A stretch of 62,363 bases of DNA from Gammaproteobacteria bacterium (lineage in GTDB: Bacteria > Pseudomonadota > Gammaproteobacteria > Xanthomonadales > Wenzhouxiangellaceae), in contig JAHJQV010000055.1 in NCBI GenBank assembly GCA_018819105.1, positions 1 to 62,363 on the forward strand. Direction: 5' to 3'. This document shows, in pieces, positions 16,237 through 26,657 of this stretch (the stretch's first letter is position 1; each line of letters starts with the position of its first letter). Below the pieces are notes generated by a model. It ran no database searches, was not told the origin of the DNA, and saw only the letters and a program-made list of their open reading frames with translations. The position numbers were made by a program, and so were the translations under genes.

Positions 16237-17001
16237 TCAGGCCATGTACATGCCACCGTTGACATGCAGCGTTTCGCCGCTGATGTAGGCGGCCTGTTCG
16301 GAGGCCAGAAAACTCACCGCATGGGCGATGTCTTCGACCTGGCCAAGCCGCGCCAGCGGAATGTTGGCCAGCATGGCATCGCGCTGCTGGGCATCCAGAT
16401 CTGCGGTCATGTCGGTCTCGATGAAACCCGGCGCCACCACGTTGACGGTGATGCCGCGACTGCCGACCTCACGCGCCAGCGACTTGCTGAATGCGGTCAC
16501 GCCGGCCTTGGCGGCGGCATAGTTGGCCTGGCCTGGGTTGCCGATGCTGCCGATCACCGAGGTGATTGAGATGATGCGCCCCCAGCGCTGCTTCATCATG
16601 CCGCGCAGGCAGGCCTTGCTGAGTCGGAACACCGAGCGCAGATCGGTGTTCTGCACGCTCTGCCAGTCGTCCTCGCTCATGCGCAACAGCAACTGATCGC
16701 GGGTGATGCCGGCATTGTTGACCAGAATCGTCGGCGCACCGGCGCGCTCACTGATCACCGCCAGCGCCTGGGCAATGCTGTCACTGTCGTTCACGTCCAG
16801 TTGCAGACCGGCAGCGTCCAGCTGCGGATTGAGTGCGGCCAGTCTGGCACTGATGGCGCTGGCCCCGGCTGCCGAGGTGGCGGTGCCGAACACCTGATGC
16901 CCCTGGGCTGCCAGGGCGTCGGCGATCGCCGCACCGATGCCACGGCTGGCACCGGTGACCAGAGCGATGCGCGCAGCGGATGTTGATGTGCTTGGGTTCA
17001 T
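16237..17001 (-). CDS. fabG: 3-oxoacyl-ACP reductase
   Basis: A 254-residue short-chain dehydrogenase/reductase that reduces 3-oxoacyl-ACP with NADPH. Cofactor motif TGASRGIG lies at about residues 16-23, NNAG near 95, catalytic Ser in ISITSVIGSIGNPGQ, then the YAAAKAG Tyr-Lys pair and a PGFIETDMT loop typical of FabG. The start MNPSTSTSAAR was chosen because longer frames run back into the fabD end. The N-terminus is a short Ser/Thr-rich extension before the first strand. It lies 91 nt after fabD and ahead of acpP, as in most proteobacteria. Confidence 0.95.
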   Translation of the reverse strand: MNPSTSTSAARIALVTGASRGIGAAIADALAAQGHQVFGTATSAAGASAISARLAALNPQLDAAGLQLDVNDSDSIAQALAVISERAGAPTILVNNAGITRDQLLLRMSEDDWQSVQNTDLRSVFRLSKACLRGMMKQRWGRIISITSVIGSIGNPGQANYAAAKAGVTAFSKSLAREVGSRGITVNVVAPGFIETDMTADLDAQQRDAMLANIPLARLGQVEDIAHAVSFLASEQAAYISGETLHVNGGMYMA

Positions 17002-19994: not shown

Positions 19995-20023
19995 ATTATA
20001 ACGGATTACTTGAGATGTGCATA
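19995..20023 (-). promoter_or_regulatory. Putative yceD-rpmF-fab promoter, very short leader
   Basis: On the minus strand TATAAT (19995-20000) lies 17 nt from TATGCA (20018-20023, 3 of 6 matches to TTGACA). The yceD ATG begins only 9 nt after the -10, so a transcript from it would have a leader of about 3 nt. The -10 is perfect, the -35 is weak, and another promoter inside maf is possible. Confidence 0.45.
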
Positions 20024-20078
20024 CCATTCCAGCAGGCATGCGAGCGGTCTGTCCGTCGCGCCACTCCCGGCCAGGACC

Positions 20079-20741
20079 GTGCCTGATCTGTCGCTGCAAC
20101 GCCCATCACCCAGTTGTCGACTGGTACTGGCCTCATCATCGCCGTATCGCCGCATGCTGCTGCAGCGCCTGGCGCTGGCATTTGACTGCATCGCCCCGGA
20201 GATCGATGAATCGGTGCTGCCGGATGAGCCTCCGCGGCAGTATGTCAGCCGGCTGGCCCTGGCCAAGGCTCAGCGGGTGGCCACGCTGCTGCTGCAACAG
20301 CACAATACCGATGAGCGCACCAGCCAGCCCGAGCCGGTGCTGATCATCGGCTCCGACCAGGCGCTGGTGCTGGACGATGAGATCATCAGCAAACCCGCCG
20401 ACCACAGCGCCGCCGTGGCCATGCTGCAGCGCTGCGCCGGCCGCACAGTCATGTTCCACTGCGGCTGGCAGTTGCTGCAGCTGGCCGCCAATGGCACGGT
20501 GGCGTCACTGGCTGCCGCCGTGGTACCGACCGAGGTGGAGTTTCGCCAGCTCGCTGACGACGAAATCCTGCGCTACATCGAGCGCGAACCAGCCCTGGAC
20601 TGCGCCGGTGCCTTCAAGTCCGAGGCGCTGGGCATCAGCCTGTTCGCCGCCCTGCGCAGCGATGACCCGACCGCGCTGATTGGCCTGCCCCTGATCAGTC
20701 TCAGCGCAGGGCTGCGTCAGGCCGGGCTGGCCCTGCCCTGA
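20079..20741 (+). CDS. yceF: Maf/YceF nucleotide pyrophosphatase
   Basis: A Maf-family house-cleaning pyrophosphatase of about 220 residues that hydrolyses non-canonical nucleotides. The N-terminal RLVLASSSPYRR is the YceF variant (SPYR), linked to 7-methyl-GTP hydrolysis in E. coli. The GSDQALVLDDEIISKP motif carries the catalytic Asp, and the C-terminal CAGAFKSEALGISLF is typical. No ATG fits: the GTG at 20079, preceded by CAGGA, is the best start, and the first 13 residues are poorly conserved. It is divergent from yceD, exactly as in E. coli. Confidence 0.88.
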   Translation: MPDLSLQRPSPSCRLVLASSSPYRRMLLQRLALAFDCIAPEIDESVLPDEPPRQYVSRLALAKAQRVATLLLQQHNTDERTSQPEPVLIIGSDQALVLDDEIISKPADHSAAVAMLQRCAGRTVMFHCGWQLLQLAANGTVASLAAAVVPTEVEFRQLADDEILRYIEREPALDCAGAFKSEALGISLFAALRSDDPTALIGLPLISLSAGLRQAGLALP

Positions 20742-20900
20742 TTCCGATCAGATCTGCGACAATTCCGACAGCCACCGCACCCGGGCCTATTGGCCTATGA
20801 GTCAATGCCCCTATCTTGTTAACATGTACATCCGGACATCACGGGGTTCGGCGGCATCGCAGAACCACACACCCAATCCAGTCAGCAATCGGATAGCAGC

Positions 20901-23213
20901 ATGAATGCAACCAGCAAGCAAACTTATCGTCACTGGCAGCTTGAGCACGATATCGACAACGTTGCCTGGCTTAGCATTGATCGTGCCGGCGCCTCCACCA
21001 ACGTGCTCAGCAACGAGGTACTTAACGAGCTGCAGGATGTGATTCTGCATCTGGAACAGCATCGCCCGGCCGGGCTGGTGCTGATATCAGGCAAGCCCGG
21101 TCAGTTCATTGCCGGTGCCGATGTCAATGAATTCGACGAAGTGACCGACCTGGAAACCGGTCGCAAGCAGCTCAATCGGGTGCATGATCTGTTCACCCGC
21201 ATCGAGAACCTGAACTTCCCCACTGCAGTGGCATTTGAGGGTTTCTGTCTCGGCGGCGGACTGGAGCTGTCGCTGTGCTTTGACTGGATCATCGCCCGCA
21301 ACGATGAGCACACCCGCATCGGTTTTCCGGAGGTCAATCTTGGCATCTACCCCGGCTTCGGCGGCTCGGCGCGGACACCGCAGCGCATCGGTGGCCAGAA
21401 TGCCATGCAGATCATGCTCACCGGACAGATGCTGCGGCCCGGTGCCGCGCGCGGCATGGGGCTGGTGGATCAACTGGTGGGAGAACACGAAACCCTGCGC
21501 TGGGCCGCACGGCGCGCGGTGCTGGCGGGTAAAAAACACCGCCAGCCGGGGCTGCTGGCACGCGCTACCAATCTGGGCCCGGCGCGCAAGCTTCTGGCCG
21601 GCATCATGCGCAAGAAAACCGCCGCCAAGGCACCGCAACAGCACTATCCGGCTCCATACAAGCTGATCGACGCCTGGGAAGCCTGTGGCAACGATCAGGA
21701 TCACATGCTGCGCGCAGAGGTGCGCAATGTGCCGGAACTGCTGGTTGGCGACACCTCGCGCAATCTGCGCCGCGTGTTCAAGCTGATGGAGGCGCTCAAG
21801 GCGCAGGGCAAACAGAGCGACTTCAAGGCCCACCGTGTGCACGTCATCGGTGCCGGTGTGATGGGTGGCGACATCGCTGCCTGGTGTGTGCTGAAAGGGC
21901 TGGAAGTAACCCTGCAGGACCGCGAGATGAAATACATCGAACCGGCCATCAAACGCGCCAAACAGCTGTTCCGCAAGAAACTGCGCACCGATGCCAAGGT
22001 GATGGCAGCGATGTCACGGCTGCGCGCCGATGTCGACGGTGACGGCGTGGCGCGGGCCGATGTGGTCATCGAGGCCATCTTCGAAAATCTGGAAGCCAAG
22101 CAGGCGCTGTATAAGAACATCGAGCCACAGATGCAGCCGCATGCCCTGCTCGCCACCAACACCTCGGCACTGCCGCTGGCGGATCTGGCCAAAGTGCTGC
22201 AGCAGCCCAAACGGCTGATCGGACTGCATTATTTCAACCCGGTGGCAAAAATGCCGCTGGTAGAAATCGTTTACGACGAGCAGCTCACCAACGAGGATCT
22301 GGTCGCCGACGGTGCCAGCTTCGTGCGCCAGATCGGCAAATATCCATTGCCGGTCAAATCCACCCCTGGTTTTCTGGTCAACCGGGTGCTGGCACCGTAC
22401 ATGGCCAATGCCATTGAATTGTACCGTGACGGCATACCCAAGGAGGCCATCGACAAGGCAGCGGTGCGCTTCGGCATGCCGATGGGGCCGGTGGAGCTGG
22501 CCGACACCGTGGGCCTGGATGTGGGCATGTCGGTGATCAAGACCGTCGGCATCGACACCGACGGCAGCAAGGCCAAATACATGAAAAACTTTGTCGATGC
22601 CGGCAAGCTGGGCAAGAAATCCGGCGAAGGTTTCTACACCTGGGAAAAAGGCAAACCCAAACGCGACAAGGACGCTGCCCAGGGGCACGATCTGCACGCA
22701 CTCGGGCTGCAGCTGGTGCAACCCTATCTGGATGAGTGTGCCGCCTGCGCCAAAGACGGCATCGTCGGCAGCGATGATCTGATCGACGCCGGCATGATCT
22801 TCGGCACCGGCTTTGCGCCGTTTCGCGGCGGCCCGCTGCACTACCTGCGCTCGCGTCCAGCCGAGGATGCCACCGCAGCCAAAGCGGCACCGCGCACGCC
22901 CAACCGGCAATCGGCGACCAGCGAACAGACCTCCGCTGCGCAGCAATCCAACGACGAGCCTGACCCAGATAGCCAAGGCAGCAGTGTCGACAAGTCCGCA
23001 GGCAGCAAGCAATCAGCCCGCAAGAGCGGCAAGAAAACCGGCAAGAAAACCGCCGCCAAAACGGCGAAAAAAGTCAGCAAAAAGACCACCGGCAAGGCTG
23101 CCGCAAAAAAGTCTTCCAGCAAGAAGACAGCGAACAAGAGCACTGCCAAGAATGAATCCGCCGACATTCGCAATGAAACCGCCACCAACACGCAGCAAGG
23201 AGACCAGTCATGA
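20901..23213 (+). CDS. fadB: Fatty acid oxidation complex alpha subunit with Lys-rich tail
   Basis: A 770-residue bifunctional enoyl-CoA hydratase / 3-hydroxyacyl-CoA dehydrogenase. Residues 1-190 are a crotonase domain with GFCLGGGLELSL and GFPEVNLGIYPGFGG holding the two catalytic glutamates. From residue 313 (VIGAGVMGGDIAAW) an NAD domain follows, with GLHYFNPVAKMPLVEIV containing the catalytic His, then the C-terminal helical dehydrogenase domain to about 655. Residues 657-770 are extra. Within 697-750 there are 19 Lys and one Arg in 54 residues, mixed with Ala/Ser/Thr/Gly, like AlgP, PhaF or histone H1 tails. The ATGA overlap with fadI at 23210-23213 shows the tail is translated to its natural stop. 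Confidence 0.93.
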   Translation: MNATSKQTYRHWQLEHDIDNVAWLSIDRAGASTNVLSNEVLNELQDVILHLEQHRPAGLVLISGKPGQFIAGADVNEFDEVTDLETGRKQLNRVHDLFTRIENLNFPTAVAFEGFCLGGGLELSLCFDWIIARNDEHTRIGFPEVNLGIYPGFGGSARTPQRIGGQNAMQIMLTGQMLRPGAARGMGLVDQLVGEHETLRWAARRAVLAGKKHRQPGLLARATNLGPARKLLAGIMRKKTAAKAPQQHYPAPYKLIDAWEACGNDQDHMLRAEVRNVPELLVGDTSRNLRRVFKLMEALKAQGKQSDFKAHRVHVIGAGVMGGDIAAWCVLKGLEVTLQDREMKYIEPAIKRAKQLFRKKLRTDAKVMAAMSRLRADVDGDGVARADVVIEAIFENLEAKQALYKNIEPQMQPHALLATNTSALPLADLAKVLQQPKRLIGLHYFNPVAKMPLVEIVYDEQLTNEDLVADGASFVRQIGKYPLPVKSTPGFLVNRVLAPYMANAIELYRDGIPKEAIDKAAVRFGMPMGPVELADTVGLDVGMSVIKTVGIDTDGSKAKYMKNFVDAGKLGKKSGEGFYTWEKGKPKRDKDAAQGHDLHALGLQLVQPYLDECAACAKDGIVGSDDLIDAGMIFGTGFAPFRGGPLHYLRSRPAEDATAAKAAPRTPNRQSATSEQTSAAQQSNDEPDPDSQGSSVDKSAGSKQSARKSGKKTGKKTAAKTAKKVSKKTTGKAAAKKSSSKKTANKSTAKNESADIRNETATNTQQGDQS

Positions 23214-24496
23214 GTGAGCAAACACTGCGCCGAGTCGCCATCGTCGGTGGCGTTCGCATTCCGTTCTGCCGCTCCAACACCAGCTATGCCGACGTCACCA
23301 ACCTGGACATGCTGGCGTCCGCCCTGCAGGGAATGGTCGAGCGCTATGAACTGGCCGGGGTGAAAATCGATGAAGTCATCGGCGGTGCCGTCACCACCCA
23401 CAGCAAGGACTGGAATCTGGCCCGAGAAGCGGTACTGTCCACCGACCTGTCGCCACTGACCCCGGGCATCACACTGCAGCAGGCCTGCGGCACCAGCCTG
23501 CAGGCGGCGCTGATTTCCGGCGCCAAGATTGCCAGCGGTCAGATCGACAGCGCCATCGCCTGTGGCACCGACACCACCAGCGATGCGCCACTGGTGCTCA
23601 AGCGCAAACTGGCCCAACGCCTGATCAAACTGCCCCGCGCACGCTCATTCAAGGACAAGCTGAAATTGTTCAAGGGCTTCAGTCCGGGCGAGCTGACGCC
23701 GGTGCCGCCAGCCAATGGCGAACCACGCACCGGCCTGTCCATGGGCCAGCATTGCGAACGCATGGCGCGCGCCTGGAACATCGGTCGTGAAGCACAGGAC
23801 AAAATCGCACTGGCCAGTCATCAAAGCGCCCACCAGGCGTGGGAAAACGGCTTCTATGACGACATGGTGCGAAGCTTTGCCGGCGTCACCCGCGACAACA
23901 ACATCCGCGCCGACAGCTCACTGGAAACACTGGCCGGACTGCGCCCGGTGTTTGATCGTAAATCCGGCAAGGGCACACTGACCGCCGCCAACAGCACTCC
24001 GCTGACCGATGGTGCGGCCGCGGTGATGCTGTGCTCGGAAGAGTACGCGGAAAAACATGACCTGCCGGTGCTGGCCTACCTCACCCACGGCCGCCATGCG
24101 GCGGTCGACTTCGTCAACGACGAGGGTCTGCTGATGGCACCGACCGTGGCCATGGCGGAAATGCTGCAGGCGGCGAATCTGAAGCTGCAGGACTTTGACC
24201 GCTACGAAATCCACGAAGCCTTCGCTGCCCAGTTGCTGTGCACGCTGAAGGCCTGGGAATCCGAGGATTACTGTCGCGAGCGACTGGGTCTGAACAGCGC
24301 CATGGGCAGCATCGACCTGAGCAAAATGAACCTGCATGGCGGCAGCATCGCCATCGGCCATCCGTTCGCCGCCACCGGTGCCCGCATTGTCGCCACACTG
24401 GCGGAAGAACTCGCCGCCGGCGGCGGCCAGCGCGGCGTGATTTCGGTGTGTACTGCCGGTGGCATGGGGGTCACGGCGATTCTGGAAAAAGCCTGA
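23210..24496 (+). CDS. fadI: Acetyl-CoA C-acyltransferase (thiolase), FadI type
   Basis: A 428-residue thiolase, the beta subunit of the beta-oxidation complex, which cleaves 3-ketoacyl-CoA with CoA. The nucleophile Cys is in QQACGTSLQA near residue 93, the catalytic His in GGSIAIGHPFAATGAR, and the second Cys in CTAGGMGV. The long loop between residues 140 and 170 resembles FadI/trifunctional beta subunits more than FadA. Its start overlaps the fadB stop (ATGA), so the subunits are translationally coupled. A strong hairpin follows the stop by 12 nt. Confidence 0.93.
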   Translation: MSEQTLRRVAIVGGVRIPFCRSNTSYADVTNLDMLASALQGMVERYELAGVKIDEVIGGAVTTHSKDWNLAREAVLSTDLSPLTPGITLQQACGTSLQAALISGAKIASGQIDSAIACGTDTTSDAPLVLKRKLAQRLIKLPRARSFKDKLKLFKGFSPGELTPVPPANGEPRTGLSMGQHCERMARAWNIGREAQDKIALASHQSAHQAWENGFYDDMVRSFAGVTRDNNIRADSSLETLAGLRPVFDRKSGKGTLTAANSTPLTDGAAAVMLCSEEYAEKHDLPVLAYLTHGRHAAVDFVNDEGLLMAPTVAMAEMLQAANLKLQDFDRYEIHEAFAAQLLCTLKAWESEDYCRERLGLNSAMGSIDLSKMNLHGGSIAIGHPFAATGARIVATLAEELAAGGGQRGVISVCTAGGMGVTAILEKA

Positions 24497-24508
24497 GCCA
24501 GACGGTTG

Positions 24509-24545
24509 CAATGTCAGCGGGCCATTGTGCCCGCTGGCATTGTTT
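24509..24545 (+). terminator. Probable transcription terminator of fadB-fadI
   Basis: A 14-bp stem (24509-24522 with 24529-24542) with one G-T mismatch and a 6-nt loop follows the fadI stop. It ends in TTGTTT rather than a long T run, so termination may be partial. Confidence 0.6.
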
Positions 24546-24570
24546 GGCGCTCGCTCCCGCGCTCCTGCGT

Positions 24571-24888
24571 GGAAACGACTGGTCTAGCGCTTGTGCCCGA
24601 GCATGGCCAGCAGCCCGATTGAGTTCGCCTGCAGGCAGTCTCCTACAGGAAGCGATGTTTATCCGCCGAACGACGCCCCGGAGCGCCAGCGTCCCCGCTG
24701 GCATCTAATGATGCTCGTTTGCAAGTACCCGCTTTGGAATACCTGGTCGAACGCTTGGGCCCGAACATGGCCAGCAGCCCGACATGGCCAGGAGCATGAT
24801 TGGATAGGGTTCGCCTGCAAGCAGTTTCCTAAAGGAAGCGCTGTTTGACCGCTGAAAAACGCTCTGGAGCACCCGCGTCTCCGCTGAC
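24571..24888. repeat. Two diverged copies of an intergenic repeat
   Basis: The 529-nt gap between fadI and the SulP gene holds no gene. Two direct copies lie at about 24571-24703 and 24736-24888. They share the identical 17-mer CATGGCCAGCAGCCCGA (24602-24618 and 24766-24782), then TTCGCCTGCA(G/A)GCAG, CCTA(C/A)AGGAAGCG and a GGAGC...CCCGCGTC/GCGTCCCCGCTG end. The second copy has about 20 extra bases. The composition is that of dispersed intergenic repeats of pseudomonads and xanthomonads; its function is unknown. Confidence 0.65.
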
Positions 24889-25025
24889 AGCAAGCTCGAC
24901 CTGCCTGATGCATTCCACCGCTTGCACCATTGCAGGCAACAAGCCGCCAGGGGAGCGCCAACGTATACTGTCAGGGAAATATCTCCATCGCGGTCCTGTC
25001 CCGCCAACCCTGCCATGGATTGAGA

Positions 25026-26657
25026 ATGTCGCAACCCAGTCTGTCCGGTGATCTGTTCGGTGGCCTGACCGCTGCCGTCGTGGCCTTGCCGCTGGCGCTG
25101 GCGTTTGGTGTCGCTTCCGGCCTGGGTCCACTTGCCGGGGTCTATGGTGCCATTGCCATCGGCTTTTTTGCATCCGCTTTCGGTGGCACGCCAGCGCAAA
25201 TTTCCGGCCCGACCGGGCCCATGACCGTGGTCACCGCCGCTGTGGTCGCGCAATATGCGGAGAATCTGAACATGGCGTTCACCATCATCATGCTCGGCGG
25301 CGTCATGCAGATGCTGCTGGGTGTGCTCAAGGTCGGCAAAGCCATTGCCTACACGCCGTACTCGGTGATTTCCGGCTTCATGAGCGGCATCGGCATCATC
25401 ATCATCCTGCTGCAACTGCCGGCCTTGTTCGGTGTGCCGCAAGTCGAAGGCGCTGCGGCCGCTGTGCTGCTGCAACTGGATCAGCTCTGGCACAGCTTAA
25501 ATCCGCATGCCCTGCTGGTTGGCCTGGGCACACTGCTGGTGGCGCTGTTGTGGCCCGCGCGCTGGCAACGCTGGCTGCCGGCACCACTGGCTGCATTGAT
25601 TGCCGGCAGTCTGCTGGCAAACCTCCTGCTGACCCGGGCTCCGGTGCTCGGCGAACTGCCATTTGGTCTGCCTACGCTGCACTGGCCTGGCTTGCAGGCC
25701 AGCCAGTTGACCCAGGCCATCCAGCCCGCGTTTGTGCTCGCCCTGCTGGGCAGCATCGACAGCCTGCTCACCTCACTGGTGGCCGATTCGCTGACCCGCA
25801 CCCAGCATCGGCCCAACCGCGAGCTGCTGGGACAGGGTCTGGGCAACACCATTGCCGGTCTGGTTGGCGGCATTCCCGGTGCCGGTGCCACCATGCGCAC
25901 TGTGATCAACATCCAGGCCGGAGGCCGTGGTCGCACATCCGGCATCGTCCATGCCGTCACCCTGCTGCTGCTGGTGCTGGTGCTGGCACCGTTGACCGGA
26001 AAAATTCCGCATGCAGTGCTCGCCGGCATTCTGCTCAAGGTGGGCTGGGACATCATCGACTGGGGCTATCTGCGCGTGCTGCTGCAATTGCCTCGTGACA
26101 AGGTGCTGGTCATGCTGATCACGCTTATCCTGACCGTGTTTGTGGATCTGATCACCGCCGTCGCGGTGGGTCTGATCGTCGCTGGCATCGTCACCGCCAT
26201 GCGCACCGAACGTGACGAGATGTCCCGTGTACAGGCGGGATCTGCCGCGGCTGTCGATGATCTCAGCGCAGCCGAACAACATCTGCTGGCGGGATCGGGC
26301 GATGCCATTGCCATCCTCAGCATGTCCGGCCACTTTTCCTATGCTTCGGCGCGTGCGCTGAATCAGCGTCTGGCATTGCTGGACAGTCAGCACCGTGTGC
26401 TGATACTGGATTTCGGCCGACTCGCCTATGTTGATCCATCCATGGCGCTGGCGATTCGTGATCTGCTGCATGCAGCCGCAGATCATCGCTTGCACTGTGT
26501 CGTGGTTTGCCCTCACCAGCAGGCACTTTCCCCGCTGCAGGCATTTCAGGTGTTCGCCCGCAGTCATCCCGACGACATTGTGACCGATCGCCACGCTGCC
26601 CTCACACGTGCTGTCCAGATTATCAACCAGACCAACCAGATCAACCAGGCCCATTGA
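25026..26657 (+). CDS. SulP family anion transporter with STAS domain
   Basis: A 543-residue inner-membrane protein of the SLC26/SulP family. About residues 5-400 form a UraA-fold membrane domain with about 12-14 helices, including GGTPAQISGPTGPMTVV (anion-site half-helix), FMSGIGIIIILLQLP and a GNTIAGLVGGIPGAGATMRT motif. Residues about 440-535 are a cytoplasmic STAS domain (VLILDFGRLAYVDPSMALAI). Known substrates in the family are sulfate, bicarbonate and dicarboxylates; none can be assigned, and no carbonic anhydrase lies beside it. The start MSQPSLSGDL follows a weak GGA site, and longer frames add non-conserved residues. The gene ends in an Asn/Gln-rich tail. Confidence 0.9.
   Translation: MSQPSLSGDLFGGLTAAVVALPLALAFGVASGLGPLAGVYGAIAIGFFASAFGGTPAQISGPTGPMTVVTAAVVAQYAENLNMAFTIIMLGGVMQMLLGVLKVGKAIAYTPYSVISGFMSGIGIIIILLQLPALFGVPQVEGAAAAVLLQLDQLWHSLNPHALLVGLGTLLVALLWPARWQRWLPAPLAALIAGSLLANLLLTRAPVLGELPFGLPTLHWPGLQASQLTQAIQPAFVLALLGSIDSLLTSLVADSLTRTQHRPNRELLGQGLGNTIAGLVGGIPGAGATMRTVINIQAGGRGRTSGIVHAVTLLLLVLVLAPLTGKIPHAVLAGILLKVGWDIIDWGYLRVLLQLPRDKVLVMLITLILTVFVDLITAVAVGLIVAGIVTAMRTERDEMSRVQAGSAAAVDDLSAAEQHLLAGSGDAIAILSMSGHFSYASARALNQRLALLDSQHRVLILDFGRLAYVDPSMALAIRDLLHAAADHRLHCVVVCPHQQALSPLQAFQVFARSHPDDIVTDRHAALTRAVQIINQTNQINQAH

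Follow-up and report, generated by a model that had tools for sequence, protein, structure and literature searches.

The window, that is, the whole stretch of 62,363 nucleotides analysed here, contains a fadB-type gene whose product ends in a long lysine-rich tail. The question raised by this locus is whether such a tail is a real and lasting part of a beta-oxidation enzyme and, if so, which role it may play.

The fadB gene of the window and its tail

The features of the locus are as follows.

20901..23213, + strand: fadB-type gene, alpha subunit of the beta-oxidation complex, 770 aa plus stop (open reading frame; Pfam ECH_1, 3HCDH_N and 3HCDH)
20901..22863, + strand: folded core of FadB, residues 1-654, hydratase and dehydrogenase domains (AlphaFold pLDDT mostly >80 up to residue ~660; closest PDB fold 6ysv, the alpha subunit of E. 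coli anaerobic trifunctional enzyme, TFE)
22869..22988, + strand: polar linker of FadB, residues 657-696 (sequence; pLDDT <50 from residue 664)
22989..23150, + strand: lysine-rich block of FadB, residues 697-750, 19 Lys and 1 Arg in 54 (composition; 9 Lys in a 20-residue window)
23151..23210, + strand: end of the FadB tail, without lysine, residues 751-770 (sequence)
23210..24496, + strand: fadI-type thiolase gene, 428 aa, ATGA overlap with fadB (Pfam Thiolase_N/C; NCBIfam NF006740 above cut-off)

The Pfam search of FadB gave three domains above cut-off (PF00378, PF02737 and PF00725), i.e. enoyl-CoA hydratase followed by the NAD-binding and C-terminal domains of 3-hydroxyacyl-CoA dehydrogenase. 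All of them lay in the core, and no match was found in the tail. The thiolase partner (PF00108 and PF02803) adjoins fadB at 23210-24496, and both hallmarks of a trifunctional alpha subunit were present. The best PDB match of the core, by sequence as well as by fold, was the alpha subunit of E. coli anaerobic TFE. The NCBIfam equivalog cut-offs were not reached by the window FadB (483 of 869 bits for PRK11154 FadJ, 431 of 870 for PRK11730 FadB and 425 of 968 for TIGR02440). By sequence, the core is related to both FadJ and FadB.

FadB proteins of the same subtype without a tail end at about 651-690 aa, so the tail does lie beyond the normal FadB end of this subtype, as a previous sequence-only reading had stated. 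Of 13 more remote relatives belonging to other families of the order, 12 end in an extra segment of about 30 residues with the motif RF.P..GW, which is absent from the subtype of the window. The codon of residue 657 starts at 22869. Counting of residues 697-750 (n = 54) gave K19, R1, A10, S9, T7 and G4, which confirmed the 19 lysines and single arginine reported there before, and the lysine peak was 9 in 20 residues. The G+C content was 60% in the window and 54% in the lysine-rich block, indicating that lysine was enriched despite the G+C-rich setting. In the AlphaFold model of FadB (29 sequences), the core was modelled well, and residues 664-770 had a pLDDT <50.

The end of fadB and the start of fadI share an ATGA at 23210-23213, from which it had been argued that the reading frame is real. 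The overlap was found as described, and the congener G001, a separate MAG, encodes a 764-aa FadB with a Lys-rich C-terminal tail of 109 residues and shows the same overlap. An assembly frameshift or read-through was ruled out, since tails were seen in more than one assembly and also in the records of named strains. Nor is the tail absent from close relatives, as G001 and all six genomes of genus g5 have it at the same place. Expansion of a DNA repeat was ruled out as the source of the tail, because only a 2.2-copy 12-base unit (23027-23052) was found. A known RNA element was ruled out as well, as no Rfam family reached the gathering score within 20000-25500. Finally, a pure spacer role in translational coupling was rejected, because the fadB-fadI junctions differ (in the host genus, g1, the tail coding sequence and fadI share an ATGA; in genus g5, 46-83 bases lie between the FadB tail and fadI) and because genus g4 carries its tail at the N-terminus. 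Downstream, between fadI and the next ORF, diverged direct repeats were observed at 24521-24889 of the window (98 nt at 72% and 87 nt at 80% identity), which may represent a small repeat dispersed over intergenic regions. The ORF that follows them (24930-26657) was a SulP-like transporter by eye.

Lysine-rich tails across the Wenzhouxiangellaceae

The family sample consisted of 43 genomes from seven genera, with the host genome (G000) being 3.14 Mb and 98.68% complete. Tails were scored in 38 of the 43; G029 and G035 were dropped for lack of a FadB at E 1e-150, and G028, G061 and G030 because FadB or FadI was cut by contig ends. A tail was called at 6 or more Lys in 20 terminal residues, a threshold that was set after the data had been seen, and the nearest upstream ATG was taken as the start codon. 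It was found that 27 of the 38 genomes had a Lys-rich tail, located at the FadB C-terminus in 8, the FadB N-terminus in 2 and the FadI C-terminus in 17. At a stricter level of 8 Lys in 20, 25 of these 27 were retained (G004 had 7 and G026 had 6). The 11 tail-less genomes were ten g6 genomes and G003, whose FadB is split over two contigs, so that its C-terminal part and N-terminus were read separately. No complex with two tails was seen among the 27 tailed genomes, in 26 of which both subunits were read; in G017 the FadI end follows an N run in a shifted frame and is unreadable, and a second tail is possible there.

The place of the tail depended on the genus. The FadB C-terminal tail was present in all six g5 genomes at the same place as in the window FadB. 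Together with G001, these genomes supplied the homologue comparison that had been proposed earlier, and they upheld the conservation of the tail. Both genomes of g4, the sister genus of g1, had no FadB C-terminal tail but a short Lys-rich extension at the FadB N-terminus, which was preceded by the only in-frame start codon (ATG, GTG or TTG) listed. In g2, g7 and 15 g6 genomes, FadB was plain, and FadI was 475-515 aa long compared with 426-432 aa and ended in a Lys-rich tail. Lys-rich tails on FadB or FadI were also found in Wenzhouxiangella sp. XN79A, W. sediminis XDB06 and W. limi C33, and residues 431-482 of the W. sediminis FadI were likewise modelled by AlphaFold with a pLDDT <50. A given tail persisted across whole genera (g5, 6/6; g1, 2/2; g4, 2/2). 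A PPK2-family gene was observed to adjoin fadI in both g4 genomes (L082 and L083; G004:C12:154029-154727 and G008:C44:74632-75336).

For comparison beyond the family, eighty named loci were inspected, 29 of which were taken as family and 51 of which matched no family genome. All three ends were read in 48 of the 51; none of these 48 had a Lys-rich tail, and no read end among the 51 exceeded 2 Lys in 20. The 22 rows outside the family in the tree set had no tail either. Two FadB proteins from outside the family showed long disordered-looking C-terminal tails, acidic/Pro-rich in L155 and Ala/acidic-rich in L163, without Lys blocks. In the open-licence PMC literature, covered by titles and abstract openings, no report of a lysine-rich tail on FadB or FadI was found.

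The history of the tail was followed on a tree of the FadB and FadI cores (60 rows, 1070 columns; quick search, LG+G4). The four tail states required 6 changes on this tree, compared with a mean of 23.9 after shuffling. The rows of g1 (FadB C-terminus) and g4 (FadB N-terminus) were joined at an SH-aLRT of 99, and those of g5 (FadB C-terminus) stood elsewhere. AU tests, whose groups were named after the data had been seen, rejected a single clade of all tailed rows (p 1.9e-11) as well as a single clade of the FadB C-terminal ones (p 4.4e-8), and a single origin of FadB C-terminal tails was rejected on the latter result. Gain and loss of tails were indistinguishable on the tree. The pattern that no complex has two tails is only suggestive, because the 6 changes on the tree represent few independent events.

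The 27 tails together comprised 1891 residues, with 425 Lys, 94 Arg and 43 hydrophobic residues. Lys and Arg were about equally frequent in the FadB cores, whereas Lys was strongly favoured over Arg in the tails (425 vs 94), in genomes that are G+C-rich. Tail identity was 27-84% in the same compared pairs in which core identity was 77-99%; for example, core and tail identities were 86% and 34% for G000/G001, and 93% and 42% for G005/G009. These results demonstrated that the tail sequence is fast-changing and its composition is not. Because the genera differ in which of the three termini bears the tail, it looks like a module of the FadB-FadI complex that changes place, and not a property of one subunit. 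This behaviour as a property of the complex, which the sequence-only reading had missed, is better supported than the role proposed there.

Possible roles of the tail

We propose that the tail may serve as a polycationic, intrinsically disordered tether of the whole FadB-FadI complex, with nucleic acid as its most likely target, and we put the probability of this reading at roughly 0.45. Selection would act on the charge of the complex, such that a tail gained on one terminus would make another dispensable. The tail would bind a cellular polyanion electrostatically and independently of sequence, most likely nucleic acid (nucleoid or RNA). Such binding would hold the enzyme in place, perhaps near neutral-lipid inclusions, whose phasin is likewise Lys-rich at its end in these genomes. 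Should the complex form an alpha2beta2 tetramer, as its relatives of solved structure do, two tails would be present, whichever gene encodes them. The fuller statement, that a polylysine tether has moved between the FadB C-terminus, the FadB N-terminus and the FadI C-terminus of a complex selected to keep one, and that the beta-oxidation machinery of the family is thereby held on nucleic acid or membrane, is put forward tentatively, at somewhat less than even odds.

If this were true, it would be a case of a conserved function without conserved sequence, position or gene. Retention of a polycation by a central lipid-degrading complex, despite the changes in its place, would imply that selection acts on where this metabolic enzyme sits in the cell. 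The case also illustrates an annotation trap, since such conservation is invisible when each subunit is examined alone. Against a tether, the 11 tail-less family genomes showed no known relevant difference.

The alternative that survived best, although we consider it rather unlikely, is an electrostatic anchor on anionic phospholipid (the inner membrane or a lipid-droplet monolayer), which would hold a peripheral TFE where acyl-CoA is made. Among solved structures, the alpha subunit of E. coli anaerobic TFE is the closest, and this enzyme and human TFE are described as membrane-associated (PMC11301753); this membrane association of the sister subfamily of known structure favours membrane over nucleic acid as the target. 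WS/DGAT was found in 40 of the 43 genomes, which makes neutral-lipid inclusions plausible, and a purely electrostatic anchor would be indifferent to the terminus. On the other hand, the scarcity of hydrophobic residues in the tails (43/1891) speaks against an amphipathic helix. WS/DGAT occurred in 26/27 tailed and 9/11 tail-less genomes, an association that was not significant, and in this and the other gene-tail tests (PhaC, PPK1, phasin) the genome rows were not phylogenetically independent. With the DNA binding of comparable Lys-rich tails (MLDS and AlgP) and the presence of other Lys-rich ends of the host on a ribosomal protein and a phasin, a nucleic-acid tether is ranked first among the candidate targets and an anionic-membrane anchor second.

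How unusual such an end is in this lineage was assessed on ORFs of at least 90 aa, which were picked mechanically from stretches of five family genomes. It was found that 4 of the 960 ORFs reached 8 Lys in 20, or 3 of 959 without the window FadB, which was in the sample by construction. When the Lys block was used as a similarity query against the host genome, three other places were hit, namely a PF05597 phasin, ribosomal protein L30 and one place without a Lys-rich frame. Searches with this query were insensitive, as the known tails of G009, G004, G014, G016, G018 and G010 were missed, and no weight is placed on absence. The two host genes with Lys-rich ends are listed below.

L245:1465-1875, host contig C53: ribosomal protein L30 with Lys-rich extension (relatives L284, L291, L297, L304, L305 and L306)
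L244:1042-1596, host contig C9: PF05597 phasin with Lys-rich ends (domain at 16246-16632)

Of 30 phasins read, 28 had a 20-residue stretch with at least 6 Lys near an end (among the first 40 or the last 50 residues), and the N-terminus was Lys-rich in most; in the two exceptions (G016 and G021) the start had been picked far upstream. A long Lys-rich N-terminal extension of L30 was found in 6 of 30 read (G001, G004, G008, G019, G030 and G035) and in the host, i.e. in g1, g4 and three g6 genomes on scattered branches, while the other 24 of the 30 had at most 64 aa. The host phasin, encoded in a genome without a PhaC match, may coat inclusions of wax esters or triacylglycerol; a WS/DGAT gene (C9 12934-13737) lies a few kilobases from its gene. 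A 140-aa protein of G004 (L307:1183-1605, contig C20), by eye a helix-turn-helix regulator, has a Lys/Arg-rich tail end with 8 Lys in 20, which gives another Lys-rich end on a probable nucleic-acid binder. There is a small club of family proteins with Lys-rich ends, of which the beta-oxidation complex is a member at three places. The existence of this club speaks for function but also, to some extent, for a lineage habit.

Such a habit, in which weakly selected, Lys-rich low-complexity ends are borne by a few abundant proteins and merely tolerated by the complex, is regarded as improbable, although the ends of L30 and the phasin imply that part of the pattern may be of this kind. It would agree with the Lys-rich ends of the phasins (28/30) and of L30 on scattered branches (6/30 and the host), with the fast change of the tails and with the 11 of 38 complexes that have none. 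It agrees poorly with the rarity of equally Lys-dense ORFs (3/959), with the persistence of tails in whole genera (g5, 6/6; g1, 2/2; g4, 2/2), and with the preference for Lys over Arg in G+C-rich genomes, unlike in the cores.

Binding of polyphosphate (lysine polyphosphate modification) could recruit or regulate the complex. The window tail, with 9 Lys in 20, is as dense in lysine as EngA and SrmB, two proteins that shift with polyphosphate (PMC12077175), and PPK1 was found in 39 of the 43 genomes, the host included. This reading was weakened, because three tailed genomes, G007, G010 and G018 (91, 99 and 97% complete, with FadI tails of 10-12 Lys in 20), showed no PPK1 match, and PPK2 was also not found in them (12 genomes examined). 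PPK1 was present in 24/27 tailed vs 10/11 tail-less genomes, a difference that was not significant, and the FadB of P. aeruginosa, which has fewer Lys, did not shift in that study. We give this reading little credence.

Electrostatic retention of acyl-CoA intermediates, in which a positive cloud near the active sites would keep CoA esters on the complex, is considered very unlikely. It would work whichever terminus bears the charge, and for TFE it has been proposed that positively charged residues on the surface guide the CoA intermediates, which are negatively charged (PMC11301753). But 11 family members and the relatives outside the family manage without a tail, and a long flexible tail has no fixed position along the channel.

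A link of the enzyme to PHA granules, which the sequence-only reading had included among its targets and which the Lys-rich ends of the host PF05597 phasin might suggest, is hardly credible: no PhaC_N match was found in the host genome (98.68% complete), PhaC was also unmatched in the congener and in genus g4, and its distribution over the family (8/27 tailed vs 6/11 tail-less, Fisher p 0.27) ran in the wrong direction. The PF05597 phasin itself occurred in 26/27 tailed and 8/11 tail-less genomes (p 0.065, not significant). The earlier interpretation as a whole is partly supported, and the observation behind it is confirmed. For the proposed tether, the natural variants with tails at three termini and their tail-less relatives, some of them named strains, are ready-made constructs for tests of target and position.

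Comparison with known systems

The enzyme itself is closest to the E. coli anaerobic trifunctional enzyme (FadJ-FadI), with which the window FadB shares core fold and domain order. It differs in the gene order fadB-fadI with an overlap, and in falling below the NCBIfam cut-offs for FadJ and FadB.

Lys-rich ends on other proteins offer partial parallels to the tail. EngA and SrmB, polyphosphate targets of P. aeruginosa, have about nine Lys in 20 like the FadB tail, but they are unrelated proteins (PMC12077175). The KKE/D domains of eukaryotic snoRNPs are Lys-rich and disordered, stand at the N- or C-terminus of different proteins and act electrostatically, as is proposed here; they differ in being eukaryotic and nucleolar, in being mixed with acidic residues and in binding rRNA (PMC11528048). 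In MLDS of Rhodococcus jostii, the Lys-rich C-terminus binds DNA, Lys-to-Glu substitution abolishes the binding, and binding without sequence specificity is expected (PMC5504291). MLDS coats lipid droplets and contains PAKKA motifs; FadB is neither a coat protein of this kind nor a carrier of such motifs.

The likeness to AlgP and PhaF, which had been noticed from the start, held in character. Both Pseudomonas proteins have, like the window FadB, a long disordered Lys/Ala-rich tail on a folded domain (PMC3574117 and PMC9239181). C-terminal peptides of AlgP bind DNA (PMC9239181), and the Lys-rich tail of PhaF has been modelled on DNA, its final 35 residues being free of basic residues (PMC3574117), comparable with the 20 residues without Lys that end the FadB tail. 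Unlike in PhaF and AlgP, Pro is absent from residues 697-750, KPAA-type repeats are lacking, no PF05597 match was found in FadB or its tail, and the bearer is a metabolic enzyme. By analogy, with its 19 Lys in 54 residues and a pLDDT <50, the FadB tail resembles the tails of AlgP, PhaF, histone H1 and MLDS in its Lys-rich, predicted-disordered character.
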